Translations under genes and position numbers: made by a program
The notes under the pieces: model-generated
What the model saw: only the letters and a program-made list of their open reading frames with translations
Database searches by the model: none
Told to the model about the DNA's origin: nothing
Shown: positions 9,499-38,537 of the stretch, in pieces
Numbering within the stretch: the stretch's first letter is position 1
Layout: each line of letters begins with the position of its first letter
Source: Streptantibioticus rubrisoli
GTDB taxonomy: Bacteria > Actinomycetota > Actinomycetes > Streptomycetales > Streptomycetaceae
DNA: 64,000 nucleotides
Direction: 5' to 3'
Assembly: GCF_024436055.1 (NCBI RefSeq)
Contig: NZ_JANFNH010000040.1
Coordinates: 1-64,000, forward strand

Positions 9499-10137
9499 AT
9501 GCGGGGTTGGAACAGGAACGGGCTGGCGGCCGCGGTCGCTGTGCTTGCCGTAGGTCTCGTGGGGTGTGGTCCGGATCACGCCGCGCCGAAGGCGAGCGCT
9601 AGCAGCCCAGCGCGAACCGCGTCCGCGTCAGCCACCCGGAGCGCAACGGCATCTCCCTCGACATCGACGTCTGCATCGCCATCATCCTCCTACTCGCCGT
9701 CGTCGTCGGCATCGGCGGTGGCCGACACCAAGGTGCGCACACCGCTGGACTTCTGCTCTGCGGTCCCGCTCCGGTATCAACCGCGAGACGTCCTGACCAT
9801 CGCGGGCATCGAGCCCACCGACGACCACCTCGGCGCAGCCCAGAACGACCTGGTCTGCCATAACCCGGACGGCGACGAGCCGTATTTCGACAACACGAAG
9901 TGGCCGATCGGGCCGTATTACGTCTCCCCGCAGGCCGCTGTGGCCCTGATCGACTCCACAGACGCCAGTCGATCTCGGATGGTCCCCGCAACCGTCGACG
10001 AACTGCGCGTGGTGCTGGACAAGTGCAAGCAGCACTACCCGGTGGCCCCGCCCTTCAGTTGCGGCCCGAACTACTACCACGTCGACTACAACTCGGCAGG
10101 CCTGATCATCCGCATCACGCAGCTCTGGCAGTCCTGA
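9499..10137 (+). CDS. Secreted lipoprotein of unknown function
   Basis: 212 residues. The N-terminus is a lipoprotein signal: positive MRGWNRNG, a hydrophobic run, and lipobox LVGC with Cys23. A long Ser/Ala/Thr-rich linker (about 30-75) spaces a small C-terminal domain of about 130 residues from the membrane; this domain holds four cysteines (DFCSAV, LVCHNP, DKCKQH, FSCGPN), probably two disulfides. Start ATG 9499 after GGGGGAG at 9490-9496. The general plan resembles actinobacterial DUF3558-like lipoproteins, but I do not recognise the domain. The 298 bp upstream hold no gene; a TTGACG is present but no -10 at proper distance. Confidence 0.75.
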   Translation: MRGWNRNGLAAAVAVLAVGLVGCGPDHAAPKASASSPARTASASATRSATASPSTSTSASPSSSYSPSSSASAVADTKVRTPLDFCSAVPLRYQPRDVLTIAGIEPTDDHLGAAQNDLVCHNPDGDEPYFDNTKWPIGPYYVSPQAAVALIDSTDASRSRMVPATVDELRVVLDKCKQHYPVAPPFSCGPNYYHVDYNSAGLIIRITQLWQS

Positions 10138-10282
10138 TCTCTTGGTAAGGCGACGACGCAGCACGCGGGTTGACCTCGACCGACCAACGGATTGTGTGCG
10201 CCTTGCGCGGTGACGGCTGCTCCCGAACATGGCGCGCCGGGCAGGAACCCAGGCCAGCCGCACGGGAACCCTGTGGGGCACG

Positions 10283-10510
10283 AGGGTGCGTTTCGGAAGT
10301 GCTGGTTACAGCCACTCGTTGATGGCTGCGACCAGCACGGTCGCCTCGTAGCGGACGGCGAGCTTGCCGCTTGGTGCGCACCGGTGGCCGTCCAGGCTTC
10401 TTCCCCGCTGGCAGCAGCGGCTCAAGCTTCGCCCACTGCGCATTCGTCAAGTCATGCCTCCCCATGAAGTGGATCTTCACCCATCGAGATCCACTTCTGA
10501 AACGCACCCT
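10283..10510 (-). mobile_element. MITE-like internally deleted IS5-family element
   Basis: 228 bp bounded by 18-bp terminal inverted repeats with one mismatch: AGGGTGCGTTTCGGAAGT at 10283-10300 and the complement of AGGGTGCGTTTCAGAAGT at 10493-10510. Inside, on the minus strand, the first ~35 codons of an IS5-type transposase are joined directly to its last ~20 codons. No clean target duplication is visible (flanks acg / agg). The element abuts the broken end of the Nudix gene on its right. A transposition-incompetent derivative that a full-length relative could mobilise. Confidence 0.8.
10306..10465 (-). pseudogene. Transposase remnant: N- and C-terminal ends fused by deletion
   Basis: Starts at ATG 10465 with MGRHDLTNAQWAKLEPLLPA, the classical opening of IS5-family transposases (through GKKPGRPPVRTKRQ). 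At about 10360 the frame shifts and the reading becomes GKLAVRYEATVLVAAINEWL followed by TAA at 10306-10308, the usual end of the same family. All catalytic DDE residues are missing. The junction lies in CAAGCTC, which could be shared by both original ends (microhomology, inferred). Confidence 0.75.
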
Positions 10511-10850
10511 AGGGCCCGTATCCGTGTGGGTTCGCAGGCACGTAGTCCATAAGGAGCGTTCGGCCGATCGGTACGGTGAGCCCCAGATCGGCGTGGACGG
10601 CACGCTTCAACGCGCCGCGTGGCTCCTCCACGGCACGCGCGGTGTGTTCGGGCAGGCACCACTCGCCGTCGCTGGCGCTGACGGGTCTGACCAACAGCAC
10701 GTTGGCGAACTGGTCAAGCATCAGCGCAAGGCACCCGAGGCGCGGGCGCGGATGCCGCACTCCGGCAACCTCGCCCGAACTCAGCCAGTCCGTCTCCGCC
10801 GGGGCAGTGCCGGTACCGATGGCCAGAGCGATGTGGTCACGCCCTATCAC
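10509..10850 (-). pseudogene. Truncated Nudix hydrolase
   Basis: GTG 10850 follows GGAGG at about 8 nt. The 113 residues include a Nudix core: FANVLLVRPVSASDGEWCLP, then RGALKRAVHADLGLTVPIGR and DYVPANPHGYGP. The Nudix box is degenerate: the GxxxxxEx7REUxEE pattern is largely replaced by PEHTARAVEEPRGALKRAVHADLG, so catalysis is doubtful even before truncation. The frame stops at TAG 10509-10511, created exactly where the MITE-like element begins. The missing C-terminal half is not found on the other side of the element. Confidence 0.6.
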
Positions 10851-11783: not shown

Positions 11784-12443
11784 ATGTTGGCCTCACGCAC
11801 CTATTTCACCGCCGTCACCGCGGCCGTCCTGCTCGCCGGTACCACCGGCACGGCGCTGGCCGCCCCGGCGCACGGCGCTCGCCGGGTGAGCCACCTGGCC
11901 GCCGCACCCAGTGCTGCCCCGGGCTTCAGCGACGGCAGCTTCGAGAACCCCAGGGTGGCGCCGAACACGCTGCGGACCTTCACCACTGGGCGGTCCATAG
12001 GCCCATGGAAAGTCACCCAGGCGACGGTCGACCTGTTGGACGGGCACTGGCAGGCAGCCGACGGCCAGCAGTCCGTGGACCTCAACGGCACCGAGAAGGA
12101 CCTCCCCAGCACCCGCCCGGGGGCCGTGTCGCAGACCTTCGCCACCACCCCGGGAGCCACGTACACGGTGACGTACGCGCTCGCCGGAAACTACGAACGA
12201 GGCCCGGCCGTGAAGACGGGCAAGGTCCTCGTCGACGGGCAGGACTTCCAGGACTTCTCCTTCGACACCACCGGGAAGTCCGCCACGAACATGGGCTGGG
12301 TGAAGCGGCAGATGACCTTCGTGGCCACCGGAGATTCCACGACCCTGACGTTTGCCAGCACCACCGCGCACACCCCGAGCGGACCGGTCCTCGACGATGT
12401 CACGGTCCACCGCTGCAAGCCCTCGTGCTGCTGCTGCGTCTGA
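11784..12443 (+). CDS. Secreted DUF642 / choice-of-anchor-C-like protein with cysteine-rich tail
   Basis: 219 residues. A signal peptide (hydrophobic 10-27, likely cleavage after ALAAPA) is followed by one beta-sandwich domain (about 47-209) with DUF642-type landmarks: DGSFENP, GPWKV, AADGQQSVDLNG, SQTFATTPGATYTVTY, and FDTTGKSATNMGW. The domain is paralogous to the outside domain of the sigma-factor fusion at 15406-17154. The last nine residues are CKPSCCCCV: all five cysteines of the protein lie there (211, 215-218). ATG 11784 follows GAAAGGA. Such domains are often carbohydrate-binding or cell-wall associated; the tail could bind metal or form disulfides (inference). A hairpin follows at 12497-12535. 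Confidence 0.82.
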   Translation: MLASRTYFTAVTAAVLLAGTTGTALAAPAHGARRVSHLAAAPSAAPGFSDGSFENPRVAPNTLRTFTTGRSIGPWKVTQATVDLLDGHWQAADGQQSVDLNGTEKDLPSTRPGAVSQTFATTPGATYTVTYALAGNYERGPAVKTGKVLVDGQDFQDFSFDTTGKSATNMGWVKRQMTFVATGDSTTLTFASTTAHTPSGPVLDDVTVHRCKPSCCCCV

Positions 12444-12496
12444 CGACGGCCGACGCGACCGCTGCCTGACACGACCCCTTGCTCAGGCTGTCGACG

Positions 12497-12535
12497 TTGA
12501 CAGTGGCCCCCGCCCCGAGCGCGGGCCACTGTCAA
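12497..12535. terminator. Long stem-loop between the secreted protein and putP
   Basis: TTGACAGTGGCCC (12497-12509) pairs perfectly with GGGCCACTGTCAA (12523-12535), with extra G/C pairs inside. A strong hairpin 53 bp after the upstream stop and 45 bp before the putP start; probably terminates the first gene. Confidence 0.7.
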
Positions 12536-12580
12536 CGCGGTCGGCGGGCTCGCCCAGCTCCACCGTCAACGGAGAAACGG

Positions 12581-14107
12581 ATGGAACTACAGACCGCACC
12601 GATAATGATCACCTTCGGGCTGTTCATGTTCGTGATGATCGGGATCGGTGTCCATCAGGGCACCGAGACGTTCGTCGAATTCGTGCTGGGCGGCCGTCGG
12701 CTCAATCCACTGGTGGCGGCCCTGTCCGCGGAGGCAAGTGACATGTCCGGCTGGCTGTTCGTGGGCCTGCCCGGAGCCGTCTACGCCGGGGGGATCAGCG
12801 CCACCTGGATCGCGGTCGGCCTCGCCATGGGAACGTACCTGAACTGGCGGCTGGTCGCCCCCCGGCTGCGCACCTACACGGAACGGGCGAACAACGCGGT
12901 GACCCTCCCCGCGTACTTGGAAGAACGCTTCGAGGACCGAGGAAGGACGCTGCGCACCATCTCGGCAACGGTCACCGTCGTGTTCTTCACCGTCTACGTG
13001 GCGAGCGGCTTCGTCGCCGGCGGCCTGCTGTTCAACCAGATATTCGGCGTGGGATTCGAATTCGGGGTCACCGTCTTCGCCGTCGTGATGGTCACCTATT
13101 CCGTGCTGGGCGGCTTCCGCGCCGTGAGCGCGTCCCATCTGCTGCAGGGCACGTTGATGCTTGTCGGGGCGCTCGCCGCTCCCGCGATCGGCGTCTGGCG
13201 GTTCGGGGGCCTGGGCGCGCTGCACCGTGCGCTGGCCCACGGGTCTGCGGCACTGCTCGACATGGGGTCGCAGGCCAGCTTTGCCAACGGCCAATGGAGC
13301 GCAGGCAGACCCCTGGGCGCCACCGCCGTGATCTCCATGTTCGCCTGGGGCCTCGGCTACTTCGGACAACCGCACATCCTGGCCCGATTCATGGCCATCC
13401 AGAATCCTGGAGACATTCCCAAAGCCCGGCGCATCAGCGCCGGTTGGGTGGTTCTCGCGCTGGTCGGCGCCAGCTTCGCGGGACTCCTGGGCACCGTTTT
13501 GATCCAGCGGCCGCTCACCGATCCCGAGACGGTGTTCATCGCGCTGGCCACGCAGCTGGCCAATCCGTGGCTCGCGGGTGTCCTGCTGGTGGCCGTGCTC
13601 GCCGCGATCAAGTCCACCGCGGACAGCCAGTTGCTGGTCACGGCGACATCGGTCACCGAGGACTTCTTCCACGCCTACGTCCACCGCCGCGCCTCGGACG
13701 CGGCGTTGTTGTGGACGGCCCGCGCGGCCGTGGTCGGGGTTGCGGGGGTCGCTTATCTGATCGCGCTGAGCGGCGGCGACGTGCTGGGCATCGTCTCCTA
13801 TGCCTGGGCGGGCTTCGGCGCCGCCTTCGGGCCGGTGCTCCTGCTGTCGCTGTACTGGCCCGGGATGACGAAGGCCGGGGCGACAGCGGGCATCGTGACG
13901 GGCGCGCTCACCGTGCTCCTGTGGGACCGGATCGATCCGCTCCTCGGCCCGCTGCGGACCGGTGTGTACGCGATGGTGCCCGGGGTGGTCGCCGCCACTG
14001 CCGCCGCGTTGTGCTTCAGCGCCTTCGTCGGCAGCCCTCCGCGGCAGCGGTTCTGCGACGACGCGGCGCATTCGGCGGCGAAACACCGCAGGTGCGACCA
14101 GACCTGA
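12581..14107 (+). CDS. putP: Sodium/proline symporter, SSS family
   Basis: 508 residues, close to E. coli PutP (502), with about 13 membrane helices. Family landmarks include YFVLGGR-type entry (EFVLGGRRLNPLVAALSAEA), ASDMSGWLFVGLPG, GFGYFGQPHIL-like GLGYFGQPHILARFMA and the C-terminal signature AAIKSTADSQLLVTATSVTED, which carries the Na+-site Ser/Thr residues of the family. Likely imports proline (or a related solute) with sodium. Start ATG 12581 with GGAG at 12571-12574; the frame is open further upstream but the hairpin at 12497-12535 argues against it. Proline specificity is by resemblance only. Confidence 0.9.
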   Translation: MELQTAPIMITFGLFMFVMIGIGVHQGTETFVEFVLGGRRLNPLVAALSAEASDMSGWLFVGLPGAVYAGGISATWIAVGLAMGTYLNWRLVAPRLRTYTERANNAVTLPAYLEERFEDRGRTLRTISATVTVVFFTVYVASGFVAGGLLFNQIFGVGFEFGVTVFAVVMVTYSVLGGFRAVSASHLLQGTLMLVGALAAPAIGVWRFGGLGALHRALAHGSAALLDMGSQASFANGQWSAGRPLGATAVISMFAWGLGYFGQPHILARFMAIQNPGDIPKARRISAGWVVLALVGASFAGLLGTVLIQRPLTDPETVFIALATQLANPWLAGVLLVAVLAAIKSTADSQLLVTATSVTEDFFHAYVHRRASDAALLWTARAAVVGVAGVAYLIALSGGDVLGIVSYAWAGFGAAFGPVLLLSLYWPGMTKAGATAGIVTGALTVLLWDRIDPLLGPLRTGVYAMVPGVVAATAAALCFSAFVGSPPRQRFCDDAAHSAAKHRRCDQT

Positions 14108-14172
14108 ATGTGCGTCAGAAAATTCTTGGTTTTCTCACGTCATAGTCCGGCACCGGATCCCACTGTGTAGAC

Positions 14173-15324
14173 GTGGACACGAACGGTGAAGCACCACGAC
14201 GAGCGAAGACGGTTGTCGATGCGCAAGGGTCCGACGCGACCGTACCCAGGGACGACTACGCAGGTGACGGAAGGGACCACCGTGGTACCGGGCCGCATGC
14301 AGTCACCACGGACTCGTTGAGTCAGGCGCTACGTACCGCTTGGGCCATCGCGGCACAGGGGGTGGACACGCCCCACGTGGAAGTCCTCCGCGCCTGGGCA
14401 CGCGAGTTCCTCACGCTGCTCCATGCCGACCAGGAACGTCAGCTCCTCCCAGCGGCTCCCGCGCACACCGCGGCGTTCGGCCCCACCGGTTGGCGGCACC
14501 CGTCCCAGCAGGAACCCAAAGTGTCGATCTGGTGTTTCGGCGGGTTCCGGATGGCCGTCGGCGAGCGGTTGATCGACTGGACGAAGGTGCGCCCGCGTGC
14601 TCGCGCCGCCATGCGACTGCTCGCCGTGCGCGCAGGGCAGCCGGTGCACCGGGAGACCCTGATCGAGGCACTGTGGCCCGACGCGCCCGCCGATTCGGCC
14701 ACGGCCAACCTCCAGGTGGCCATCTCCAGTCTGCGCAACCTGCTGGAGCCGGACCGGGAGCGGCGCAAGCCCCGACTGGTGATCCGCGACGGCGACGCGT
14801 ACCTGCTCAACCTCCCGGCCGGCGCCCACCTCGACACCCTCGCGTTCCAGGCCGCACTGGCCTACGGGCGACGAGCGAGAGCTGCCGGGAACACCGCGAT
14901 GACCCGGCAAGGCCTGCGCGACGCGCTCGCCGTCTACCGCGGTGAGCTGCTGCCCGAGGACGGCCCCGCCGAATGGCTGCAACAGGACCGGGAGATGTAC
15001 CGGTACCAGGCGGCCAACGCCGCGGCTGACCTCGCGGCTCTGGAACTCGAGGTCGGCAACCCGCAGGAGGCGGTGACCGCGGCGGAGAATTGCCTGGCCA
15101 TCGATCCTTGCCGGGACCAGGGTTGGCATCTGCTGATCAACGCCTACCAGCGCATCGGCGCACCCGCCGCGGCCGAGCGGGCTCGGCGCCGCTACACCGC
15201 CATGCTCGCCTCACTCGGCATCAGCACCGACCGGCCAGTCGTCACGTCGCTGAACGCCCCATATCCCGTCACCGGACGGCGAGTTGGGGAGGGACGGCGG
15301 CACGTGGGCCGGGTCGCCCGCTAG
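14173..15324 (+). CDS. SARP-like (BTAD domain) transcriptional regulator
   Basis: 383 residues. An extended N-terminal segment (1-115) precedes an OmpR-like winged helix (about 117-215: WCFGGFRMAVGERLIDWTKV, RETLIEALWPDAPADSATANL) and a bacterial transcriptional activation domain of TPR-like helices (about 220-365, through CRDQGWHLLINAYQRIGAPAA). SARPs usually activate secondary-metabolite or developmental genes. The GTG at 14173 has no obvious SD; a later start inside the N-terminal extension is possible. Convergent with the sigma fusion gene across a bidirectional-looking hairpin. No biosynthetic cluster is adjacent, so its target is open. Confidence 0.85.
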   Translation: MDTNGEAPRRAKTVVDAQGSDATVPRDDYAGDGRDHRGTGPHAVTTDSLSQALRTAWAIAAQGVDTPHVEVLRAWAREFLTLLHADQERQLLPAAPAHTAAFGPTGWRHPSQQEPKVSIWCFGGFRMAVGERLIDWTKVRPRARAAMRLLAVRAGQPVHRETLIEALWPDAPADSATANLQVAISSLRNLLEPDRERRKPRLVIRDGDAYLLNLPAGAHLDTLAFQAALAYGRRARAAGNTAMTRQGLRDALAVYRGELLPEDGPAEWLQQDREMYRYQAANAAADLAALELEVGNPQEAVTAAENCLAIDPCRDQGWHLLINAYQRIGAPAAAERARRRYTAMLASLGISTDRPVVTSLNAPYPVTGRRVGEGRRHVGRVAR

Positions 15325-15342
15325 CCGGTGATCCGAGGAATC

Positions 15343-15366
15343 CGGCGGTGTCCACGGACACCGCCG
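15343..15366. terminator. Hairpin between convergent genes
   Basis: CGGCGGTGTCC (15343-15353) and GGACACCGCCG (15356-15366) are exact complements; the fully paired loop would be too small, so the tip opens. Followed by CCCCGCCCCTTT. It sits between the SARP gene and the sigma fusion gene and can serve both. Confidence 0.75.
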
Positions 15367-15405
15367 CCCCGCCCCTTTCAGGGGAAGAGGCGGCACGGCG
15401 GTGCG

Positions 15406-17154
15406 TTACGCCGGTACGACCTTCACGCCGTCGATGGTCGGCCCGCATCTGCTGTTCGGGTCGGTGGTGCTGATGAAGCGCACTGTGCTCCGCGCACCCG
15501 TCGCGGTGAACCGTACGGTCTCCGGCCGCCAGCCCATGTTGTTCGCGGAGTGCCCCGTGGTGTCGAAGGTGAAGTTGCTTGTGGTCTGGGCGGCTTGGAG
15601 CGTCATGGTCTTGATCGCTGGCGCGCAGGTGAAGTTGCCTGCGAAGAAGAAGCTGACGATGTAGTGCTGACCGGCGGTGGTGTTGAAGGTCTGGGCGAGC
15701 GCCCCGTTGATGGGAGCGGGAGGGTCGCCGTTCAGGTCGATCGACTGCTTGCCATCGGCGGCCTGGAAGGCGTCCGACCGTGTGATGTTCACCGAGCCCT
15801 GGGCGACCTGCCACGGCCCGATGAACTGTCCCGCCCGGTAGAGGACCACGGGGGCGTTGACCACCGGAGTCTCGAAGTCACCGTCGAACACCACTGAAGT
15901 GGGGTTGGGAGGTTTGGACACGGGCGCCGAGGGGCTCACGCCGGACTGCGACGGCTTGGCGCTCCGCGCCGAGGCGACCGGCGACGGGTTCGCGTGAGGC
16001 CGCCCCGGACTGCCGCCCGGCTGGGGCCCCAGGGGCTCAGACGGCGTCGTGCCGGGCGAAACCGGCGACGGCGACGGTGAGGGTGACGGGGGTACGGACG
16101 GAGACACGGGCACACGGCCTTCGGCGTGCGGGCGCGCGGCGGATCCCTCCGGCGGTAGCACGGAGGCGGCCACGGCGACGAGGAACAGGCCGGATGCCAT
16201 CGAGACGCCCATGGCACTGGCGGCCACCCTGGCCCCCTTGCCGCCCGCCAGCCTCCGCCAGGCCCATCTCCGGTTGTGCGACTGGGAAGTTCGCCCCGTC
16301 CGGCCCGGCGATCCATGTGCCGGTCCGGTGCCGACCAGCGAGGCGAAGTAGCCGGCGAACGCCGGTCCCAGGAGCAGCGGAGCCAGTATGCCGCGCAGGC
16401 CGTCGGAGACCTCTCGAAGTTCCACCAGCAGTCCGGTACACCGCTCGCACCGGGCGAGGTGCTCCTCGACTCGGCGGCGATGTCGTTCCGCCAGGGACCC
16501 ACGCAGGTAGGCGGCGAGTTTCGAGGCGCACTTGCGGCACTCGTGATCCATGTCCAGCTCGGGCAGATGCGCTTGGAGGTACTCCTTGCGTAACCCTTCG
16601 CGAGCACGACAGGCAAGTGCGGCAACGGCGTTGGCGGACAGTCCCAGCCGTGGCGCGACCTCGGCCGGGCTCTCCTCTTCCACCTCGGTGTGCCATAACA
16701 CGGTCTGCCAGCGTTCGGGCAGCGCGGCGAAGGCCCGCCCGACCATTGACGCTTCCAGATCGGCCAGCACCGGGTCCTCGAAGGGGACCGCGCAGGCGTA
16801 GTCCTCCACTTCCGGCGTCGGCGTGGACCGCTTTCCGCGCACCGCCGCGTTGGTGGCGATCCGTCGTACAACCGTCAACAGATAGGGGCGAAACGCCTGT
16901 TTGGGTCCGCCACCGGCACGGATCGCGCCGAGCACCTGGGTGAACCCCTCGGAGGCCATGTCCTCCGCGTCCGCCGGACTGGGCGCGTAGAGCCGGGCCA
17001 GACAACAGGCTGGCCCGAAGTGCCGCTGGTAGAGAAGACCGAAGGCGGCGTCGTCCCCCTTCCTGGCCCGTCTTATGAGTTCCTCATCGGGTGGTTCCGC
17101 TGGTGCGCCGTCCTGCTGGCTCCCAAGCCCCTCGGGCCTCGGCCTGCCTGCCAT
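15406..17154 (-). CDS. Membrane-anchored ECF-like sigma factor with anti-sigma zinc finger and external DUF642-like domain
   Basis: 582 residues in one chain: sigma region 2 (about 22-108), sigma region 4 (about 135-195, HTH SPAEVAPRLGLSANAVAALA), an anti-sigma-like zinc finger (about 201-250; Cys206, Cys209, His232, Cys236, Cys239), one membrane helix (about 311-333), a Pro/Ser linker (340-418) and a beta-sandwich sensor outside the cell (421-582). The sensor shares AADGKQSIDLNG and FDTTGHSANNMGW with the secreted protein at 11784-12443. ATG 17154 follows GGAGGAG at 17164-17170; an ATG at 17181 has no such site. The layout implies a signal read outside the cell that frees or activates the sigma part, perhaps by proteolysis (inference). 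Fused sigma/anti-sigma ECF groups are known; this sensor pairing I do not recall. Confidence 0.87.
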   Translation of the reverse strand: MAGRPRPEGLGSQQDGAPAEPPDEELIRRARKGDDAAFGLLYQRHFGPACCLARLYAPSPADAEDMASEGFTQVLGAIRAGGGPKQAFRPYLLTVVRRIATNAAVRGKRSTPTPEVEDYACAVPFEDPVLADLEASMVGRAFAALPERWQTVLWHTEVEEESPAEVAPRLGLSANAVAALACRAREGLRKEYLQAHLPELDMDHECRKCASKLAAYLRGSLAERHRRRVEEHLARCERCTGLLVELREVSDGLRGILAPLLLGPAFAGYFASLVGTGPAHGSPGRTGRTSQSHNRRWAWRRLAGGKGARVAASAMGVSMASGLFLVAVAASVLPPEGSAARPHAEGRVPVSPSVPPSPSPSPSPVSPGTTPSEPLGPQPGGSPGRPHANPSPVASARSAKPSQSGVSPSAPVSKPPNPTSVVFDGDFETPVVNAPVVLYRAGQFIGPWQVAQGSVNITRSDAFQAADGKQSIDLNGDPPAPINGALAQTFNTTAGQHYIVSFFFAGNFTCAPAIKTMTLQAAQTTSNFTFDTTGHSANNMGWRPETVRFTATGARSTVRFISTTDPNSRCGPTIDGVKVVPA

Positions 17155-17311: not shown

Positions 17312-17935
17312 TCAGATGAGTCCATGACGCATGGCGTAGGCAACGGCATGGCAGCGGTTGCGGAGTTGGTAGCGGTTCTGGATGTCGTGCAGCACCTGCT
17401 TGACGGTACGCGGTGAGTAGGCGACCTTGGCCGCGATCTCGGCGGTGTCGAACCCTTCGGCGACCAGCCGCAGCACCTCGACCTCCCGGTCCGTGAGGTT
17501 GTTGAAGTTCAGCCCGCGCGGCCCCAGCACCTGCCGCTGCACACGGCCGACCTGGCCGAGCAGCCGTCCCAGCAGATCCGGCGGTACCGCCCCTTCTCCA
17601 GCCGCGGCCGATTTGACCACGCTGACCAGCCGTTCGGGGGTGGCTTCCCCGCGCCGAACCACCCCGACCACCCCGGCCTCCGCCACCGACACCAGGTCGG
17701 ACTCGTCGATCTGCGCGGTGACGAGCACCAGCCGAGCCGCGCTCGCCTGAGCCACCGATCGCAGAACCCGCAGGCTGTCTTCGGACACCGCACCGGTGAC
17801 GACCAAGGCGACCTTCGCCTGTTCCAACTCCGCATCAGCCAGAACCTCCACCTCCGGCCGGGGCTTGAGCGCCCCGGCCACACCGACCTGCGAGATGGGA
17901 TCATCCGCGCGAACGCAGACGGGAATGCGCTCCAT
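17312..17935 (-). CDS. LuxR-type HTH regulator with degenerate receiver-like domain
   Basis: 207 residues. The N-terminal ~125 residues fold like a receiver (VCVRADDPISQVGVAGALKP, then LVLVTAQIDESDLV, GVVGVVRRGEATPERLV) but no clear phospho-acceptor Asp site is evident at the end of strand 3 (VALVVTGAV). The C-terminal LuxR HTH is intact: LTDREVEVLRLVAEGFDTAE, then VKQVLHDIQNRYQL. ATG 17935 follows GGGGAGGAG; the longer frame has no SD. It lies upstream of the sigma fusion gene on the same strand with 157 bp between, so it could share signals with it but probably not a transcript start. Confidence 0.85.
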   Translation of the reverse strand: MERIPVCVRADDPISQVGVAGALKPRPEVEVLADAELEQAKVALVVTGAVSEDSLRVLRSVAQASAARLVLVTAQIDESDLVSVAEAGVVGVVRRGEATPERLVSVVKSAAAGEGAVPPDLLGRLLGQVGRVQRQVLGPRGLNFNNLTDREVEVLRLVAEGFDTAEIAAKVAYSPRTVKQVLHDIQNRYQLRNRCHAVAYAMRHGLI

Positions 17936-18173
17936 CCGTGCTCCTCCCCAGCGCACTGACGCCACGAGGACGTGGCGTCCTGTGAAACAACTCTGCGCTC
18001 GGCGCTGTGCGTGGACTGAACATGGACCTAACGCCGGTACGCCTGTCATGACGCGCTTAATGGTCGGCTCCGTAAACAGGTTGACTGTGGAGTGCGTTGT
18101 GTGTGGTGCGGGGACAGAGGCTGGGGTCGGTGAGGTAGAGGCCGCAGCGAACCCAGTCGGTCAGGCTTCCTTG

Positions 18174-32474: not shown

Positions 32475-33575
32475 ATGGCGAGAGAACAGCGCCAGGCCAC
32501 GATGGCGGATGTGGCGCGCAAGGCTGGGGTCTCGGTCTCCACGGTCTCGCGGGCGCTGAGGGGTTTGCCGACGGTGTCCCCCGATGCCAGGGACCGAGTG
32601 GAGCGGGCGGCCCGCGAGTTGTCGTTCGCCCTTTCCCGTAGCGCGTCGAGCCTGGTGACGGGGAAGACCGGTCGCGTCGCCGTGCTCATGCCCGGTCTGG
32701 AGCGCGCGCCCTGGTTCCTCGGTACCGCCCTGACCGGCATGGCGAGCGGGCTCAGCGAGGCTGGTCTGGACCTGCTGGTCTATGTGGTCACCAACGAGGC
32801 GGAACGCGCGGAGTTCTTCGATAGGCTCCCGGCCCGCCGCAACGCGGACGCGTTGATGGTGACGTCGTTCATCCTCACCGAGGAGGAGCGGGAGCGCCTG
32901 GACGACCTCGGCGTGCCGGTGGTCTTCGCCAGCCAGCACGCCCCCGGCCGCGCCAGCGTCTATGTCGACGACGTGGCAGCCGCCCACCAGGGCGTCCGGC
33001 ACCTGATCAACCTCGGGCACCGGCACATCGCCCATCTGCGCCTGGCGGTCGAGGACTCGTTCGTATGGAGCGCACAGGACCGGCTCGTCGGCTACCGGCG
33101 CGCACTGAAGGAAGCCGGGCTGCCCTGGGACGACTCCCTCGTGGTGCACGCCGAGTACGGCCGTGGCGGCGTCCGCCGGGCGGTCGGCTGGTTGCTGAGC
33201 CTGCCCCAGTTGCCCACCGCCGTCTTTGTCGAGTCCGACGAGATGGCCTTCGAGGTGCTCGGCGTGCTGCGTTCCTGCGGGATCGACGTGCCCGGCCGGA
33301 TGTCCGTTCTCGGCTTCGACGACCACCCTCTGGCGGAGGCCATGGACCTGTCGACCATCGCGCAGTCGGCGTGGGACACCGGGCGTGAGGCCGCCGGGCT
33401 CGTCTCCTCCATCCTCGCCGAGCCATGCGGCGACCCGGCCCGGCACGTGGTGATCCCCACCCGGTTCATCCCACGCGGGACCACGGCCGCGCCTCCGCAG
33501 GACGCCGCAGCGGTGTCCTCGGGCGGCGGGACTCAGTGGGGAGCGGCGTCGGCGGACCCCACTGAGGGGTTCTGA
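32475..33575 (+). CDS. LacI-family transcriptional regulator (copy 1)
   Basis: 366 residues. LacI HTH at 8-30 (ATMADVARKAGVSVSTVSRA), hinge, then a sugar-sensing PBP-like domain (VSVLGFDDHPLAEAMDLST near the end). It is a close paralog of the convergent gene at 33533-34621: they share SVSTVSRALRG, AARELSF, SRSASSLVTGKTGRVAVL and QDRLVGYRRAL. The 3' ends overlap by 43 bp. ATG 32475 has only a weak SD. No LacI-type operator was found upstream of this copy. Confidence 0.92.
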   Translation: MAREQRQATMADVARKAGVSVSTVSRALRGLPTVSPDARDRVERAARELSFALSRSASSLVTGKTGRVAVLMPGLERAPWFLGTALTGMASGLSEAGLDLLVYVVTNEAERAEFFDRLPARRNADALMVTSFILTEEERERLDDLGVPVVFASQHAPGRASVYVDDVAAAHQGVRHLINLGHRHIAHLRLAVEDSFVWSAQDRLVGYRRALKEAGLPWDDSLVVHAEYGRGGVRRAVGWLLSLPQLPTAVFVESDEMAFEVLGVLRSCGIDVPGRMSVLGFDDHPLAEAMDLSTIAQSAWDTGREAAGLVSSILAEPCGDPARHVVIPTRFIPRGTTAAPPQDAAAVSSGGGTQWGAASADPTEGF

Positions 33576-34621
33576 GCCGTCGGTGGCCGGTGATCCGCCC
33601 GGCGCTCGGGCGGCGGGGCCGTGGTGGCCCGCGGTATGAGCCGCGTGGGGAGCACCACGTGCCGGGCCGGGTCACACTCGGGATCGCTGATGATCGCCTG
33701 GGCCAGCCGTGCCGCCGCTCGACCGATCTCCTCGGCGGGCTGAGCGATCGTCGACAGGCCCATGGGCTCGGCGAGGTCCTGGTCGTCGAAGCCGAGAACG
33801 GACATCTGGTGAGGCACGCGAATACCGCAGGAGCGCAGGACGGCGAGGGTCTCTATGGCCATCTGATCGTCCTCGACGAAGATCGCCGTCGGCGGTTGCG
33901 GCAGGCTCAGCAGCTGGCCGACGGCCTCGCGGATGCCACGGCGGCCGCGGCCGCGGACCACCAGGCTCTCGTCGTAGGGTGATTCGGCCTCCTCCAACGC
34001 CCGCCGGTAACCCACCAGTCTGTCCTGTGAGCTCCAGGCGAAGGCGGTGTCGTCCTGTGACTGCAGGAAGGCGATGCGCCGGTGCCCGAGGTTGAGCAGG
34101 TGCCGGGTGCCGCTTCGGGCGCCCGCGATGTCGTCCACGTAGACGCTGGCCCGGTCCGGGGCGTGCTGGCTGACGTAGACCACGGGCATCCCCAACGCGT
34201 CGAGGCGCTCGCGTTCCTCGCGCTTCAGGGCGAAGGAGACGACGAGCAGGGCATCGGCATTGCGCTGGGCGGGCAGGCGCCGGAAGAACTCGGTGCGCTC
34301 GCGCATGTCCGTCACGCAGTAGACCAGCAGGTCCAGCTCGCACTCCCGCAACACCGAGGCGACGCCGGACACCGCGGCACCGAGGAACCACGCCTCGACC
34401 CCCGGCGTGAGCACGGCGACCCTGCCGGTCCTGCCCGTCACCAGACTCGACGCGCTGCGGGAGACGGCGAACGACAGCTCGCGGGCGGCATGTTCAACGC
34501 GGCGGCGGGCCTCCGGCGACACCGACGCCATGCCACGCAGGGCCCGCGAGACCGTGGACACCGAGACTCCGGCCACGCGTGCCACGTCCGCCATGGTGGC
34601 TTGGGGTCGGGCTTCGGGCAT
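33533..34621 (-). CDS. LacI-family transcriptional regulator (copy 2)
   Basis: 362 residues with the same layout as copy 1 (HTH ATMADVARVAGVSVSTVSRA, core ending SVLGFDDQDLAEPMGLSTIA). Its promoter region contains the palindrome CAAGCGCTTG at 34646-34655, 24 bp before the ATG, so it probably represses itself. It is divergent from the alpha-glucoside operon, whose promoter carries a related site, and is the best candidate for its sugar-responsive repressor. Confidence 0.92.
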   Translation of the reverse strand: MPEARPQATMADVARVAGVSVSTVSRALRGMASVSPEARRRVEHAARELSFAVSRSASSLVTGRTGRVAVLTPGVEAWFLGAAVSGVASVLRECELDLLVYCVTDMRERTEFFRRLPAQRNADALLVVSFALKREERERLDALGMPVVYVSQHAPDRASVYVDDIAGARSGTRHLLNLGHRRIAFLQSQDDTAFAWSSQDRLVGYRRALEEAESPYDESLVVRGRGRRGIREAVGQLLSLPQPPTAIFVEDDQMAIETLAVLRSCGIRVPHQMSVLGFDDQDLAEPMGLSTIAQPAEEIGRAAARLAQAIISDPECDPARHVVLPTRLIPRATTAPPPERRADHRPPTAQNPSVGSADAAPH

Positions 34622-34645
34622 AGCGGGAACCTAGCACGATCCGTG

Positions 34646-34655
34646 CAAGCGCTTG
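34646..34655. promoter_or_regulatory. LacI-type operator (autoregulatory)
   Basis: CAAGCGCTTG, a perfect palindrome within TGCAAGCGCTTGAA, the classical LacI/GalR-family centre, lying just upstream of the copy-2 regulator start. Confidence 0.8.
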
Positions 34656-34841
34656 AATGCCTGTGCGCCAAGGGATTTGGCGAAGCGTGCACCACGGGCA
34701 TCAAGGTAGGGGTCCGCGCAGGGCCGAGCACCTGCGGTGACATCGCTGTCATCCTGGGCCGCCGAGGGTCTGACGCGCCGTTTCACCGGTGCCAGCAGGG
34801 CCTTCGGTGATAACGGTGGTAAATCAGCTGGACACACTGTC

Positions 34842-34870
34842 TTGACAGGGCGTTTACGCGAACCTACGTT
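34842..34870 (+). promoter_or_regulatory. Vegetative promoter of the alpha-glucoside operon
   Basis: TTGACA at 34842-34847 and TACGTT at 34865-34870 with a 17-bp spacer, an excellent housekeeping-sigma match. An imperfect LacI operator overlaps the region just downstream of the -10. Confidence 0.75.
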
Positions 34871-34871
34871 G

Positions 34872-34880
34872 CAAGCGTTG
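34872..34880. promoter_or_regulatory. LacI-type operator of the alpha-glucoside operon
   Basis: CAAGCGTTG, one base short of the palindrome at 34646, placed one base after the -10 box where a bound repressor would block initiation. Confidence 0.7.
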
Positions 34881-35204
34881 TCACGCGCTGCTCGGCCAAC
34901 ACCTGGGCCTTGGGCCGCCTTCCCCGTTCCCCAACAGAGCAGCTCAGCCGGTTTGGGCTGATCCCCGAGCACCGGCATGACTTCCGCCCGTCCACCCGTC
35001 GACCAAGCCGGATGAGTCGGGGCCGCAATCGTGGTCACCGACACGACCGAGGCCACCGAACTTCCGAGCACCGGGACGGATCCAGCGCCACTGGTACCCG
35101 TCCACGGACACGATCCCTCCCCCTCCCTCACCGCCTACCGCGCCCGACGCCGCCCGCGCCCCGCCGGTGCCGCACGTCGGCCCCCGAACCCCAGGAGGCT
35201 TCCC
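34881..35204 (+). other. Leader of the alpha-glucoside operon
   Basis: About 320 bp between the promoter and the TTG start. The frame of the binding protein is open back to 35031, but that part has Pro/Arg-rich low-complexity composition. No riboswitch or hairpin was recognised. Confidence 0.4.
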
Positions 35205-36521
35205 TTGACTCTTCGCAGACCTCGAGCCCTGACGGCGGCCGCCGCGGGACTGCTCGTGCTGGCGGGCGCTACGGCGTGCTCGTCCGGCGGCCAGTCGGCC
35301 TCGGCGGACGCCTCCTCGGCGACCGGAACGATCACCTGGATGTCCGCCCCGCTCGGGCCGAGCGGTACCGACGCCCGCAAGGACCTGGTCGCCGCCTTCG
35401 AGAAGGCCAACCCGAAGATCACCGTCAAGCTGGTGAACGCCCCCACCGACACGGACACCATCCGCTCCACCCTGACCACCCAGATCTCCGGAGGGGCCGA
35501 GACCCCGGACGTCTACGACGGCGACGTGGTGTGGCCCGCCCAGTTCGGTCAGGCCGGACTGGCCGTCCCACTCAGCGACCACCTGCCGTCCGACTTCTGG
35601 AACCGCTTCACACCCGGTCTGGTCAAGTCCATGACCTACCAGGGCAAGGTGCTGGCCGCGCCCTTCTTCAACGACCAGGCGTTCCTGTACTACCGCAAGG
35701 ACCTGCTGGACAAGGCGCATCTGCCGGTGCCGACCACCTGGGAACAGGTGCAGAAGGAAGCCGCGCAGCTACAGGCGGACCACCAGGTCAAGTACGGCTA
35801 CGTGGGCCAGGGCTCCTCTTACGAAGGGCTCACCTGCGACTGGACCGAGATGATGACCGACGCGGGCGGCACCACGCTGGACGCCGCCGGGAAGCATGCC
35901 GCGATCGACTCGCCGCAGTCGCAGCACGCACTGGAGTTCATGCGGTCCCTGATCAGCGGTGGCGTCGCCCCACAGGCAATGACGTCCTTTCAGGAACCGC
36001 AGTCGGAGCAGCTGTTCACCAGCGGCCAGGTCGCGTTCCTGAGGAACTGGGCCTACGCCTACGCCGACGCCAACTCCTCGGCCTCGCAGGTCTCCGGCAA
36101 GGTTGGGGTGACCACCCTGCCCACCTTCTCCGGTCGGCCCGGTACCGGGCACTCGACGATCGGCGGCTGGAACCTCTACGTCAACCCGCACACCAAACAC
36201 CTGGGCGCGGACCTGGCGTTCATCAAGTTCATGACCGGGTCCGAGGCTCAGCGCATCCTGGCGACCAAGGCGGGGATGATCCCCACCAACGCCGCCGTGC
36301 TCTCCGACCGCAGTGTGCAGGCAGGCAACCCGACGCTTGCGGTCGCGGCGAAGAACCAGCTGGTCGCCCGCCCGTCCTCGGTGCCGAACTACCCCCAGGT
36401 GAGTCAGGCCGTCTACACCAACATCAACGCGGCGCTCGCCGGGTCGACGTCACCACAGGCGGCGCTGAAGGCAGCGGCCTCCCAGATCGACAGCGCTCTG
36501 TCCAAGGGCGGCGGGCTCTAG
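35205..36521 (+). CDS. Sugar ABC transporter substrate-binding lipoprotein
   Basis: 438 residues from a TTG start chosen because AGGAGG stands 6 nt before it and the lipoprotein signal then begins at once (TLRRPRALTAAAAGLLVLAG, lipobox to Cys25 in GATAC). The body is a cluster B carbohydrate-binding fold (ITWMSAPLGPSGTDARKDLV, FNDQAFLYYRKDLLDKAHLP, STIGGWNLYVNPHTKHLGAD). With the GH13 gene it most likely binds an alpha-glucoside such as maltose, isomaltose or trehalose. First gene of a four-gene operon. Confidence 0.92.
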   Translation: MTLRRPRALTAAAAGLLVLAGATACSSGGQSASADASSATGTITWMSAPLGPSGTDARKDLVAAFEKANPKITVKLVNAPTDTDTIRSTLTTQISGGAETPDVYDGDVVWPAQFGQAGLAVPLSDHLPSDFWNRFTPGLVKSMTYQGKVLAAPFFNDQAFLYYRKDLLDKAHLPVPTTWEQVQKEAAQLQADHQVKYGYVGQGSSYEGLTCDWTEMMTDAGGTTLDAAGKHAAIDSPQSQHALEFMRSLISGGVAPQAMTSFQEPQSEQLFTSGQVAFLRNWAYAYADANSSASQVSGKVGVTTLPTFSGRPGTGHSTIGGWNLYVNPHTKHLGADLAFIKFMTGSEAQRILATKAGMIPTNAAVLSDRSVQAGNPTLAVAAKNQLVARPSSVPNYPQVSQAVYTNINAALAGSTSPQAALKAAASQIDSALSKGGGL

Positions 36522-36611
36522 CCCGAATCCCGCACGGGCCCGCCATCGCCGACCGGCCTGCCGGGCCCGTGCACCGCCCCCGCACCGCCGCCGACCACGC
36601 AGGAGCTTGCC

Positions 36612-37628
36612 ATGACACCCGTACCGCACAGCGTCCCGACCGCCGACCGAGCCTCACCACCACCGCTGCCACCGCGCGCCCGCGCGGCGCACCGGGCCCC
36701 GACCGCGTCCGGCGGGCGGCCGCGATCCCGGCCATCGCTGCGCCGCCGGTACGCGCGGCTGGGGTGGCTGTTCGCGTCACCAGCCCTGCTGGTGATCCTC
36801 GGCGTGACGATCTTCCCGATCGTCTTCTCCGTCATGATGAGCGTCAGTCACGTCACCGTCCTCGGCGGGGGTTTCCAGCTCTCCGGCATCACCGGTGACA
36901 ACTACGCGGTGCTGCTGCGCTCGGACCGCTGGTTCCACGCCCTCGGGTTCACCGTTGTCTACACCGTCGTCACCGTGGCCGCCGAGGTGGTCCTCGGTAC
37001 CGCGGTCGCCCTCGTCCTGGAGCGGCTGACCGCGGGGCGCAGTTGGATGATGGCGCTGCTCCTGCTGCCCTGGTCGATGATCACCGTCATCTCCGGCGAA
37101 CTGTGGGACTACATCTACAACGGCGTCTACGGCGTGCTCAACGCCATCGTGGAACCGCTGCTCGGCCACGGCGTCAACGTGCTCGGCACCCCGCTGCTCG
37201 CCGGTATCGCCATGGGGGCCGCCGACGTGTGGAAGACCACCCCCTTCGTGGCGATCATCGTGCTGGCCGGTCTGGTCATGCTGCCCGGCGATGTGACCGA
37301 AGCGGCGCGGATGGACGGAGCGGGCGGCTGGACCATCTTCTGGCGGATCCGGCTGCCGCTGCTGCGGCCCACCATCGCCATCGCCGTGCTCTTCCGCATC
37401 CTGCAGGCGTTCGGCATCTTCGACCTGCCGTTCGTGCTCACCGGCGGCGGGCCGGGGGACTCGACCGAGTCGCTCGCCATGCTCGGGTGGCGCGCGATGT
37501 TCCAGGACCTGAAGTTCGGGCCAGGGGCCGCCGTCGCCACCAGCACCGCGGCCATCGTGCTCATCGGCTGCCTGCTGTTTCTGAAGGTCTTCCGCTCCCA
37601 GGTCGGTAACGAGGAGGTGGGCATATGA
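36612..37628 (+). CDS. Sugar ABC transporter permease (MalF/UgpA type)
   Basis: 338 residues: an unstructured basic N-terminus, then six helices; coupling loop VTEAARMDGAGGWTIFWRIR. ATG 36612 with AGGAG 6 nt upstream. The end overlaps the next permease by 4 bp (37625-37628). Forms the channel with it. Confidence 0.93.
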   Translation: MTPVPHSVPTADRASPPPLPPRARAAHRAPTASGGRPRSRPSLRRRYARLGWLFASPALLVILGVTIFPIVFSVMMSVSHVTVLGGGFQLSGITGDNYAVLLRSDRWFHALGFTVVYTVVTVAAEVVLGTAVALVLERLTAGRSWMMALLLLPWSMITVISGELWDYIYNGVYGVLNAIVEPLLGHGVNVLGTPLLAGIAMGAADVWKTTPFVAIIVLAGLVMLPGDVTEAARMDGAGGWTIFWRIRLPLLRPTIAIAVLFRILQAFGIFDLPFVLTGGGPGDSTESLAMLGWRAMFQDLKFGPGAAVATSTAAIVLIGCLLFLKVFRSQVGNEEVGI

Positions 37629-38476
37629 CCACCAGCACACGAAGCTCCCGCGGTCGGCGTCGCCTGTTCACCGGCACCCATCTCGCGGCCCTGCTGGTGG
37701 CACTGTTCACCGCGGCCCCGCTGTACTGGATGGTGGCCGGTTCCCTGAAGAGTCCACGGGAACTGGGCGCGGTGCCACCCACACTGTGGCCGCACAAGCC
37801 GACGCTGAACAACTATTCCGACGCCTTCAGCCACTACGGCTTCGCCACCTACTTGGAGAACTCCGCGCTGGTATCGGTGGTTTCTACCGTGCTGGTACTG
37901 CTGCTCGGGACGTTCGCCGGATACGCCCTGGGGCGGCTGCCGGTACGAGGCAAGTCAAACATCATGGTCGTCCTGCTGATGATCTCGCTGTTCCCCACCG
38001 TCGCGGTGGCCGCTCCGCTGTACCTGCTGTTGCGCGACATCGGCTGGCTCAACAGCTACCAGGGACTGATCCTTGCCTACACCGCGTTCAACCTCCCGTT
38101 CGCCATCTGGATCCTGCGCAACTACTTCCTGTCGATCCCCAAGGAGATGGAGGAGGTCGCGTGGATGGACGGGGCGTCTCCGCTGCGCACGGTGTTCTCG
38201 GTGATCCTGCCGCAGGCGAAACCGGGACTGTTCACCGCGGGCATCTTCACCTTCGTCTCCTGCTGGACCGAGTTCCTGCTCGCCCTCACCCTCAACAACA
38301 GCGACCGCTACCGCACCATTGCCGTCGGCATAGCGCTCTTCAACGGCCAGTTCACCATCCCCTACGGCGACATCTTCGCCGCCGCCATCGTCAGCATGCT
38401 GCCCGTCGCCATCCTCGTCCTCGTCTTCCGGCGCGCCGTGGTCTCCGGCCTGACCGCCGGAGCGGTCAAGGGATGA
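37625..38476 (+). CDS. Sugar ABC transporter permease (MalG/UgpE type)
   Basis: 283 residues, six helices, coupling loop EEVAWMDGASPLRTVFSVIL. Starts inside the stop of the preceding permease. No ATPase gene follows; in Streptomyces the shared MsiK-type ATPase usually powers such importers (family knowledge). Confidence 0.93.
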   Translation: MTTSTRSSRGRRRLFTGTHLAALLVALFTAAPLYWMVAGSLKSPRELGAVPPTLWPHKPTLNNYSDAFSHYGFATYLENSALVSVVSTVLVLLLGTFAGYALGRLPVRGKSNIMVVLLMISLFPTVAVAAPLYLLLRDIGWLNSYQGLILAYTAFNLPFAIWILRNYFLSIPKEMEEVAWMDGASPLRTVFSVILPQAKPGLFTAGIFTFVSCWTEFLLALTLNNSDRYRTIAVGIALFNGQFTIPYGDIFAAAIVSMLPVAILVLVFRRAVVSGLTAGAVKG

Positions 38477-38537
38477 CTTCCGCACTCACCGACGCCTGCT
38501 TTCACCACCCTCACAACCAGGAAAGGAACCCCCTCAC

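Follow-up and report, generated by a model that had tools for sequence, protein, structure and literature searches.

Genes at the locus of the sigma-DUF642 protein

We analysed a stretch of 64,000 nucleotides (nt) from Streptantibioticus rubrisoli (assembly GCF_024436055.1, contig NZ_JANFNH010000040.1, positions 1 to 64,000 of the forward strand), referred to below as the window, and within it the region from 11,784 to 17,154. This region carries the genes of a secreted DUF642 protein, the symporter PutP, a Streptomyces antibiotic regulatory protein (SARP) and a 582-residue protein that joins sigma factor regions 2 and 4 to a zinc finger, a membrane helix, a Pro/Ser-rich linker and a DUF642 sensor domain (Table 1). 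The genes of a small orphan protein and of a LuxR/NarL-type regulator lie on either side. What is likely to be new here is a different sensor on a one-component sigma factor of the extracytoplasmic function (ECF) type resembling group ECF52, together with a probable cascade from the sigma factor through SARP to LuxR.

The genes were called by open reading frame (ORF) length and codon-position G+C, so that the starts may be off. For the sigma-DUF642 gene, the start at 17154 has GGAGGAG immediately 5' of it, and the resulting N-terminus, MAGRPRPEGLG, is common to the ortholog of Streptantibioticus ferralitis.

Table 1. Features of the cluster in the window. Residue numbers of the sigma-DUF642 protein follow the 591-residue ORF.
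Feature	Position	Strand	Basis or remark
Small orphan protein, 130 residues	11048..11440	-	No Pfam match; in 7/7 clusters
Secreted DUF642/TIGR04362 protein, 219 residues, Cys-rich C-terminal tail	11784..12443	+	Pfam, NCBIfam
PutP, sodium/proline symporter	12581..14107	+	TIGR02121, 530.5 bits (cut-off 515.5)
M1, ECF-promoter-like element, AGAAA-N16-CGTCATAG	14114..14145	+	27 nt before SARP start
SARP regulator	14173..15324	+	Trans_reg_C and BTAD (Pfam)
Sigma-DUF642 gene	15406..17154	-	582 residues from likely start; ORF to 17181, 591 residues
DUF642/TIGR04362 sensor domain, jelly-roll model like a carbohydrate-binding module (CBM)	15418..15888	-	Pfam, NCBIfam, structure model
Pro/Ser-rich linker	15907..16137	-	Seen in translation
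Membrane helix	16156..16212	-	Residues 324-342; hydropathy only
zf-HC2, anti-sigma-like zinc finger	16438..16539	-	Residues 215-248; C215, H241, C245, C248
Sigma-70 region 4	16597..16743	-	Residues 147-195; Pfam Sigma70_r4_2
Sigma-70 region 2	16831..17034	-	Residues 50-117; Pfam Sigma70_r2; invariant D-x3-E-x-F
LuxR/NarL-type regulator	17312..17935	-	GerE (Pfam)
Inverted repeat GACGCC...GGCGTC in luxR leader	17958..17979	-	Pattern search
M2, direct repeat of 11-bp period, SARP-operator-like (GTTAGGTCCATGTTCAG here, GTTAAGTCCGTGTTAAG in relatives)	18016..18032	-	80 nt before luxR

Domain order and membrane topology

Pfam places Sigma70_r2 (33.1 bits), Sigma70_r4_2 (28.0) and zf-HC2 (33.3) on the 582-residue protein, each above its cut-off, and TIGR02937 matches the sigma part at 50.3 (cut-off 42.9). 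The Pfam model DUF642 scores 67.8 on the sensor and 84.8 on the secreted protein (cut-off 27), and the NCBIfam model TIGR04362, 'choice-of-anchor C' in NCBI naming, scores 123.6 and 158.7 bits, respectively (cut-off 120). In the alignments of five and of seven proteins, neither the region 2.2 pattern D-x3-E-x-F, which matches DVVQEAF of Escherichia coli sigma-E (1or7), nor any of the four zinc ligands varies. With regions 2 and 4 and the core-binding pattern of region 2.2, the protein has, as far as its sequence goes, the features of an ECF sigma factor. The domain order given in the preliminary description of this DNA was therefore confirmed by model scores, hydropathy and translation, and the residues needed to bind core RNA polymerase, on which that description had made its proposal depend, are retained.

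The strongest hydrophobic segment (residues 324-342, hydropathy 2.04) is followed by the Pro/Ser-rich stretch, and its equivalent scores 1.9-2.6 in all eight sigma-DUF642 proteins found (see below). Another segment just behind the zinc finger (residues 265-283, LLLGPAFAGYFASL in the window) scores 1.81, so that a single membrane helix, as assigned by hydropathy, is probable without being certain. Between the two segments, the window protein has a loop with eight Lys/Arg and no Asp/Glu, as would suit one crossing of the membrane. The secreted paralogs and the ECF52 model favour this arrangement, with the sensor outside.

Distribution and conservation of the gene set

To place the protein among its relatives, 394 genomes of the family were sampled. 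TIGR04362 matched in 66 of them and exceeded its cut-off in 48. The sigma-fused form was present in four of the genomes opened, namely the source genome (G000), G001 (probably S. ferralitis; twice), Streptomyces piniterrae (G103) and G232; long frames with weak TIGR04362 matches were left unopened in G027, G160, G164, G194, G437, G464, G468, G474, G536, G539 and G641. Free TIGR04362 proteins are much commoner than this form (48 genomes over cut-off versus 4). A 541-residue frame in G072 was considered as a further fused case and rejected, because the long frame holds a domain of the secreted type; the loci of G072, G141, G049, G347 and G330 yielded no match to the sigma part.

A pattern-led scan of one genome per species (84,980 species) yielded 19 loci, six of them sigma-fused: two in S. 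ferralitis and one each in Streptomyces sp. CT34, NBC_01481, S. piniterrae and NRRL S-337. Together with the window and G232, this gives eight proteins and seven clusters in Streptantibioticus and Streptomyces, the second S. ferralitis copy being included in the trees and kept out of the cluster counts. The seven clusters are related, and counts over them do not represent independent events.

Using phmmer and all-against-all BLAST, genes were scored up to about 10 kb from the sensor domain (over 16 kb in total for G232). Genes for LuxR, sigma-DUF642, SARP, the small orphan protein and PutP were detected in all seven clusters, with PutP reduced to a 161-residue ORF in NBC_01481 and the LuxR of CT34 interrupted by a stretch of N. 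The secreted paralog occurs in five clusters and a solute-binding protein gene in four, that of G232 being incomplete at the end of the stretch. The order and strands of the genes vary between genomes: the window reads small protein, secreted protein, PutP, SARP, sigma, LuxR, and S. piniterrae reads LuxR, sigma, SARP, small protein, PutP, secreted protein twice. None of the other cluster genes adjoins the LuxR paralogs (56-63% identity, 14 loci) or the small-protein paralogs (41-67%, 10 loci), some of these loci being short on one side (L069, L114). Because the five-gene set is found in 7/7 clusters, the neighbourhood is conserved in relatives, and the lack of conservation that the preliminary description named as its counter-evidence was not observed.

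Several further properties of these genes were recorded. PutP is the single match of its kind in the source genome at E 1e-30, and no receiver domain was found by Pfam in the LuxR/NarL-type regulator. The small-protein family has a match in 122 of 200 family genomes. The second S. ferralitis sigma-DUF642 gene (L040:4073-7123) is divergent to another SARP gene (BTAD 146.6 bits), indicating that the link between sigma factor and SARP recurs outside the cluster. Sugar-related neighbours are a rhamnosidase in S. piniterrae and, in G232, a GH43-like protein slightly below the Pfam cut-off.

Relationship to the ECF52 group

The published ECF52 build comprises a sigma domain, a zinc finger, a membrane part, a Pro-rich linker and a sugar-binding module (PMC5826349, PMC8999054). 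SCO4117, described as the only ECF52 protein of Streptomyces coelicolor, activates differentiation and antibiotic production, and its sigma domain alone is reported to be able to modulate development (PMC5826349). For some ECF52 and ECF53 proteins, the cited account lists predicted glycosyl hydrolase and carbohydrate-binding domains without experiments (PMC10766802). The 582-residue protein has the zinc finger, membrane helix and Pro-rich extension behind its sigma domain and thus shares with SCO4117 all these parts in one chain, ending in a sugar-binding-like module (PMC5826349). However, the C-terminal NPCBM domain of SCO4117 is absent from it: Pfam gave no NPCBM match up to E = 1, and DUF642, with a predicted CBM-like fold, stands in that place. 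It also differs in its separate clade, its rarity and its own set of SARP, LuxR and PutP genes.

Using the sigma and zinc-finger part as query against 200 family genomes, a match at E 1e-40 was obtained in 173. Among the matches listed, the DUF642 type came first (63-91% identity), followed by long ORFs of 37-49%, mostly one per genome; the source genome holds one such paralog (G000:C90, 43%), which is cut by the contig edge. Four of the six long-ORF homologs scanned carry NPCBM (Pfam), and the other two have no known C-terminal domain. Because the nearest sigma relatives are these SCO4117-like long ORFs, 4/6 of those scanned with NPCBM, sequence comparison suggests that the 582-residue protein is an ECF52-like sigma factor with a different sensor. 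Among the family genomes compared, the nearest homologs have the ECF52 build and the DUF642 type groups apart. The preliminary description had regarded the locus as an undescribed signalling system; this goes too far, as the build is already published for ECF52 and the nearest homologs share it. We found no published account of a DUF642 or choice-of-anchor domain on a sigma factor in what was mostly non-subscription literature; surveys of ECF groups, for instance, may mention one.

In a tree of 29 sigma parts, a branch (99/96) separates the eight DUF642-type proteins from the others. The program warned of long branches, so the nearest neighbour of the DUF642 type is unsure. In a tree of 54 DUF642 domains (from the loci L009-L038, L013, L017, L028 and L031 were left out), the eight sensors are separated from 46 free domains (100/100). 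Both trees have the same inner order, with the window beside S. ferralitis, CT34 beside G232, NRRL S-337 with NBC_01481 and S. piniterrae, and the second S. ferralitis copy outside. The grouping of NBC_01481 with S. piniterrae lacks support in the sensor tree (85/0), where the window pair groups with CT34/G232 at 92/76. A single fusion event followed by joint inheritance is the simplest reading of the sequences.

Sensor domain and its secreted paralog

The AlphaFold model of the sensor, built on 26 sequences, is all-beta with a predicted local distance difference test (pLDDT) score of 87.6 and a predicted template modelling (pTM) score of 0.86. The top solved match in VIA-align was CBM61 with galactotriose (Z 14.6, 2.5 A over 136 residues), and CBM4-2 (Z 14.3) and CBM16 (Z 13.2) were further close matches. 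No significant match to the sensor turned up in a sequence search of the PDB (best E 0.066). The model suggests a CBM-type fold, for which sugar binding is likely.

A pair of cysteines (TCAP ... RCGP in the window) is present in 6/7 sensors compared, the second S. ferralitis copy lacking both, and is missing from all 19 free domains in the same comparison. An unlinked free domain of S. ferralitis, outside that comparison, has cysteines at similar positions. A Trp found in 19/19 free domains is Trp, Phe or Tyr in six of the seven sensors. From this, the ligands of sensors and free domains may resemble each other without necessarily being identical.

The sensor and the secreted protein have 43% identity (E 3e-32), and both contain the motifs AADGxQSxDLNG and FDTTGxSAxNMGW, as AADGKQSIDLNG / AADGQQSVDLNG and FDTTGHSANNMGW / FDTTGKSATNMGW. 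A genome-wide search at E 0.001 returned these two domains as the sole matches. The N-terminus of the 219-residue protein is signal-peptide-like by eye, and its gene lies 2.96 kb from the sigma gene, with the PutP and SARP genes inside that distance. A nearby secreted protein sharing the domain of the sensor, as stated in the preliminary description, is therefore present.

The secreted protein ends in a Cys-rich tail, CKPSCCCC (window 12411-12443). Short Cys-rich C-terminal tails (CKPCCG, CCTCCC, SPCSC) were also seen in free TIGR04362 proteins of Streptomyces and Kitasatospora (L081, L083-L093), where two or more of the last ten residues are Cys in all 12 tails compared. No such tail is present on the sigma-fused sensors. 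From these sequences, the tail may be a novel anchor or crosslink.

Candidate regulatory sites before the SARP and luxR genes

ECF promoters typically combine a GGAAC-like -35 element and a CGTC-like -10 element 16 bp apart. M1, which reads AGAAAATTCTTGGTTTTCTCACGTCATAG in the window, has this spacing and is ECF-promoter-like in that sense. Its CGTCATAG part is identical in 7/7 clusters and precedes the SARP start by 26-27 nt. At 21 nt upstream of this part, three clusters have the five bases AGAAA, and the others have AGAAG, AAAAA, GGAAA and CGGAA. When four genomes were scanned with the M1 pattern (G000, G001, G103, G232), the SARP promoter was matched in each; the pattern occurred at 3, 4, 6 and 6 places, compared with 1, 0, 1 and 4 for the reversed controls. 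A matrix built from only two sites (S. piniterrae and G232, or one of them when the other was left out) ranked the SARP site at the top in all seven loci (28-46 bits, against no more than 13.9 for the next best). The suggestion that PutP and SARP are targets of the sigma factor was thus strengthened for SARP, whose ECF-promoter-like element recurs in 7/7 clusters, and not for PutP, before whose gene no shared site was seen.

M2 (GTTAAGTCCGTGTTAAG and variants) precedes luxR in all seven clusters; in the six measured, its distance to the start is 80-82 nt. A matrix from six sites recovered the seventh (CT34, 32.3 bits; next 11.1). Classical SARP sites consist of heptamers with 4-bp spacers, and through such a site PimR of Streptomyces natalensis activates the luxR-type gene pimM (PMC5930380). 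The luxR promoter region, with its heptamer direct repeats of 11-bp period, agrees in sequence with this pattern of SARP control. The exact M2 was found once each in G000 and G001, at luxR and at the top of the list. With two mismatches, the counts against reversed controls were 96/68 in G000, 114/83 in G001 and 89/72 in G232. Counts this near to the controls define no clear regulon. No shared upstream motif for the secreted, putP, small-protein and sigma genes was visible by eye in the alignments beyond the close Streptantibioticus pair.

The inverted repeat in the luxR leader was detected by pattern in 6/7 clusters; the first arm is GGCGCC in CT34, and S. ferralitis has GGTGTC. Judging from its sequence, it may serve as an operator or form an RNA hairpin. 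The solute-binding-protein gene of S. piniterrae is immediately preceded by a diverged luxR leader copy (L078:3310-3480) that includes M2 (L078:3371) and the inverted repeat, as though the gene had acquired its promoter from luxR.

Proposed mechanism and alternative explanations

We propose that the protein is a one-component, membrane-tethered ECF52-like sigma factor whose DUF642 sensor reads a polymer, and that its release leads through SARP to LuxR; we assign this reading as a whole a probability of about 0.5. The part of it given by the sequences themselves is the domain order, the single clade of the eight fused proteins, the five-gene set, and M1 and M2. At rest, the zinc-finger part would keep the sigma domains at the membrane. 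The outer domain would bind a polymer, most likely a polysaccharide of the plant-wall type, and binding would lead to cleavage in or near the membrane helix, freeing the sigma part. Release through cleavage at the membrane is expected for ECF48, ECF52 and ECF53 according to the cited account (PMC8999054). The free sigma part would then transcribe the SARP gene from M1, SARP would bind the 11-bp repeats of M2 and switch on luxR, and LuxR, with SARP, would control local functions. The working parts are likely to be PutP, the secreted DUF642 protein and, in some strains, the solute-binding protein and glycosidases; no shared site tying putP or the secreted gene to the cascade was found.

Several observations weigh against this proposal. 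Only its position and ECF-like layout link M1 to this sigma factor. In four of the seven clusters, the 120 nt preceding the SARP start lack CSGYN-17-SRHA, the consensus put forward for SCO4117 (PMC5826349); in the other three it occurs at shifted places. No M1 or M2 was seen upstream of putP, the sigma gene or the secreted gene in the clusters, and in G103 the two-mismatch count of M2 (86) does not exceed the reversed control (88). One sigma-DUF642 copy of S. ferralitis lies outside such a cluster, and the best-scoring homolog outside the group (G026, 47%) has no NPCBM. The structure model of the sigma and zinc-finger part is poor (pTM 0.38). The second, milder hydrophobic segment is present in 8/8 proteins (0.95-1.83), and the loop between the segments is acidic in CT34, NBC_01481, S. 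piniterrae, NRRL S-337 and G232; two passes would place the sensor inside the cell. With regard to the ligand, Stig cyclases (Z 13.8) and meprin (Z 13.1) have the same jelly-roll shape as the sensor, and by E-value in Foldseek the Cry1 insecticidal proteins lead (Cry1Ca first), followed by CBM4.

The occurrence of this fold in proteins other than sugar-binding modules would also suit a sensor that reads a protein or a component of the cell's own envelope, not a foreign polysaccharide. A plant DUF642 protein, BIIDXI, is likewise reported to regulate pectin methylesterase activity (PMC9694414). Nevertheless, the closest folds by Z are sugar-binding modules, and ECF52 relatives with a putative sugar-binding module have been described (PMC5826349), so we consider such a ligand unlikely. 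The gene set might instead be a co-transferred island whose members do not form one pathway, with the two DUF642 genes adjacent for that reason only. The patchy spread of the sigma form (4 of 394 sampled genomes), the variable gene order, the short PutP of NBC_01481 and the absence of a shared site before putP or the secreted gene would be consistent with this. However, the set is retained in all seven loci despite rearranged order and strand, the 14 LuxR and 10 small-protein paralog loci stand without the other members, and M1 and M2 are conserved before two regulator genes; an island of unrelated genes is accordingly rated as quite unlikely.

The preliminary description had offered the free domain as a competitor for the ligand, a carrier of it or a mate of the sensor. 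As a true partner of the sensor, it would let the cell read the density of its own secreted protein. The shared motifs, the position of the genome's only two such domains 3 kb apart and the linkage of the secreted gene in 5/7 clusters, spread over the two main branches of the sigma tree, speak for such a paired receptor. No direct support for it was obtained, however. The free domain is missing from two clusters: G232 has the five-gene cluster and no further TIGR04362 match genome-wide, and NRRL S-337 has no free copy within its 20-kb locus. S. piniterrae carries two secreted copies, and the free family is common without the sigma form. The sensors also branch away from the 46 free domains, six of seven have the Cys pair that is absent from 19 free domains, and they have no Cys-rich tail. 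A paired receptor is the least probable of these explanations. The same low standing applies to a self-reading version, in which a matrix-held or tail-crosslinked secreted protein and the sensor bind the same polymer or each other; the sigma factor would then gauge polymer already coated by the cell's own protein, and the ratio would switch the SARP-LuxR cascade. Pairing with the sensor is possible, but it would not be needed in at least one genome, because G232 has no free copy. The secreted paralog is most likely a co-inherited companion that binds the same class of polymer, for capture or adhesion, and not an obligate part of the switch.

Comparison with known systems and significance

In the RsgI/SigI systems of Clostridium thermocellum, too, a sigma factor is held by a membrane-spanning regulator with a sugar-binding module on the outside (PMC4711584, PMC12203970), and a secreted scaffoldin there bears a sugar-binding module, as the RsgI sensors do (PMC4711584). 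By analogy, the secreted DUF642 protein may simply bind the same polymer. RsgI/SigI differs in having separate sigma and anti-sigma genes and a SigI-type sigma factor, whereas a single fused chain with an ECF sigma domain was found here. The PimR to PimM cascade has the same kind of heptamer repeats with 4-bp spacers before a SARP-activated luxR-type gene, but its heptamer is CGGCAAG and no sigma factor upstream of the SARP is described in the cited account (PMC5930380). In IutY of Pseudomonas putida, a sigma factor is likewise fused to a membrane anti-sigma part and freed by proteolysis; unlike the present protein, it is aerobactin-responsive and belongs to ECF243 (PMC8999054).

ECF52-like long sigma proteins are present in most sampled genomes of the family, and the cited accounts name no external signal for them. 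The DUF642 form has the same cytoplasmic switch with another sensor, in a compact set with a predicted target (M1) and a second step (M2), so that a handful of genes would suffice to test what the sensors read and how the sigma part is freed. The DUF642 form further suggests that sigma factors of this build can exchange their outer module during evolution.

Two minor observations concern other parts of the window. An ORF beside the cluster (10115-10603) resembles the start of what we take to be an IS5-type transposase. At 32475-40187, two back-to-back LacI-like regulators lie beside an apparent sugar ATP-binding cassette (ABC) transporter and an alpha-glucosidase gene, as judged from protein starts only.

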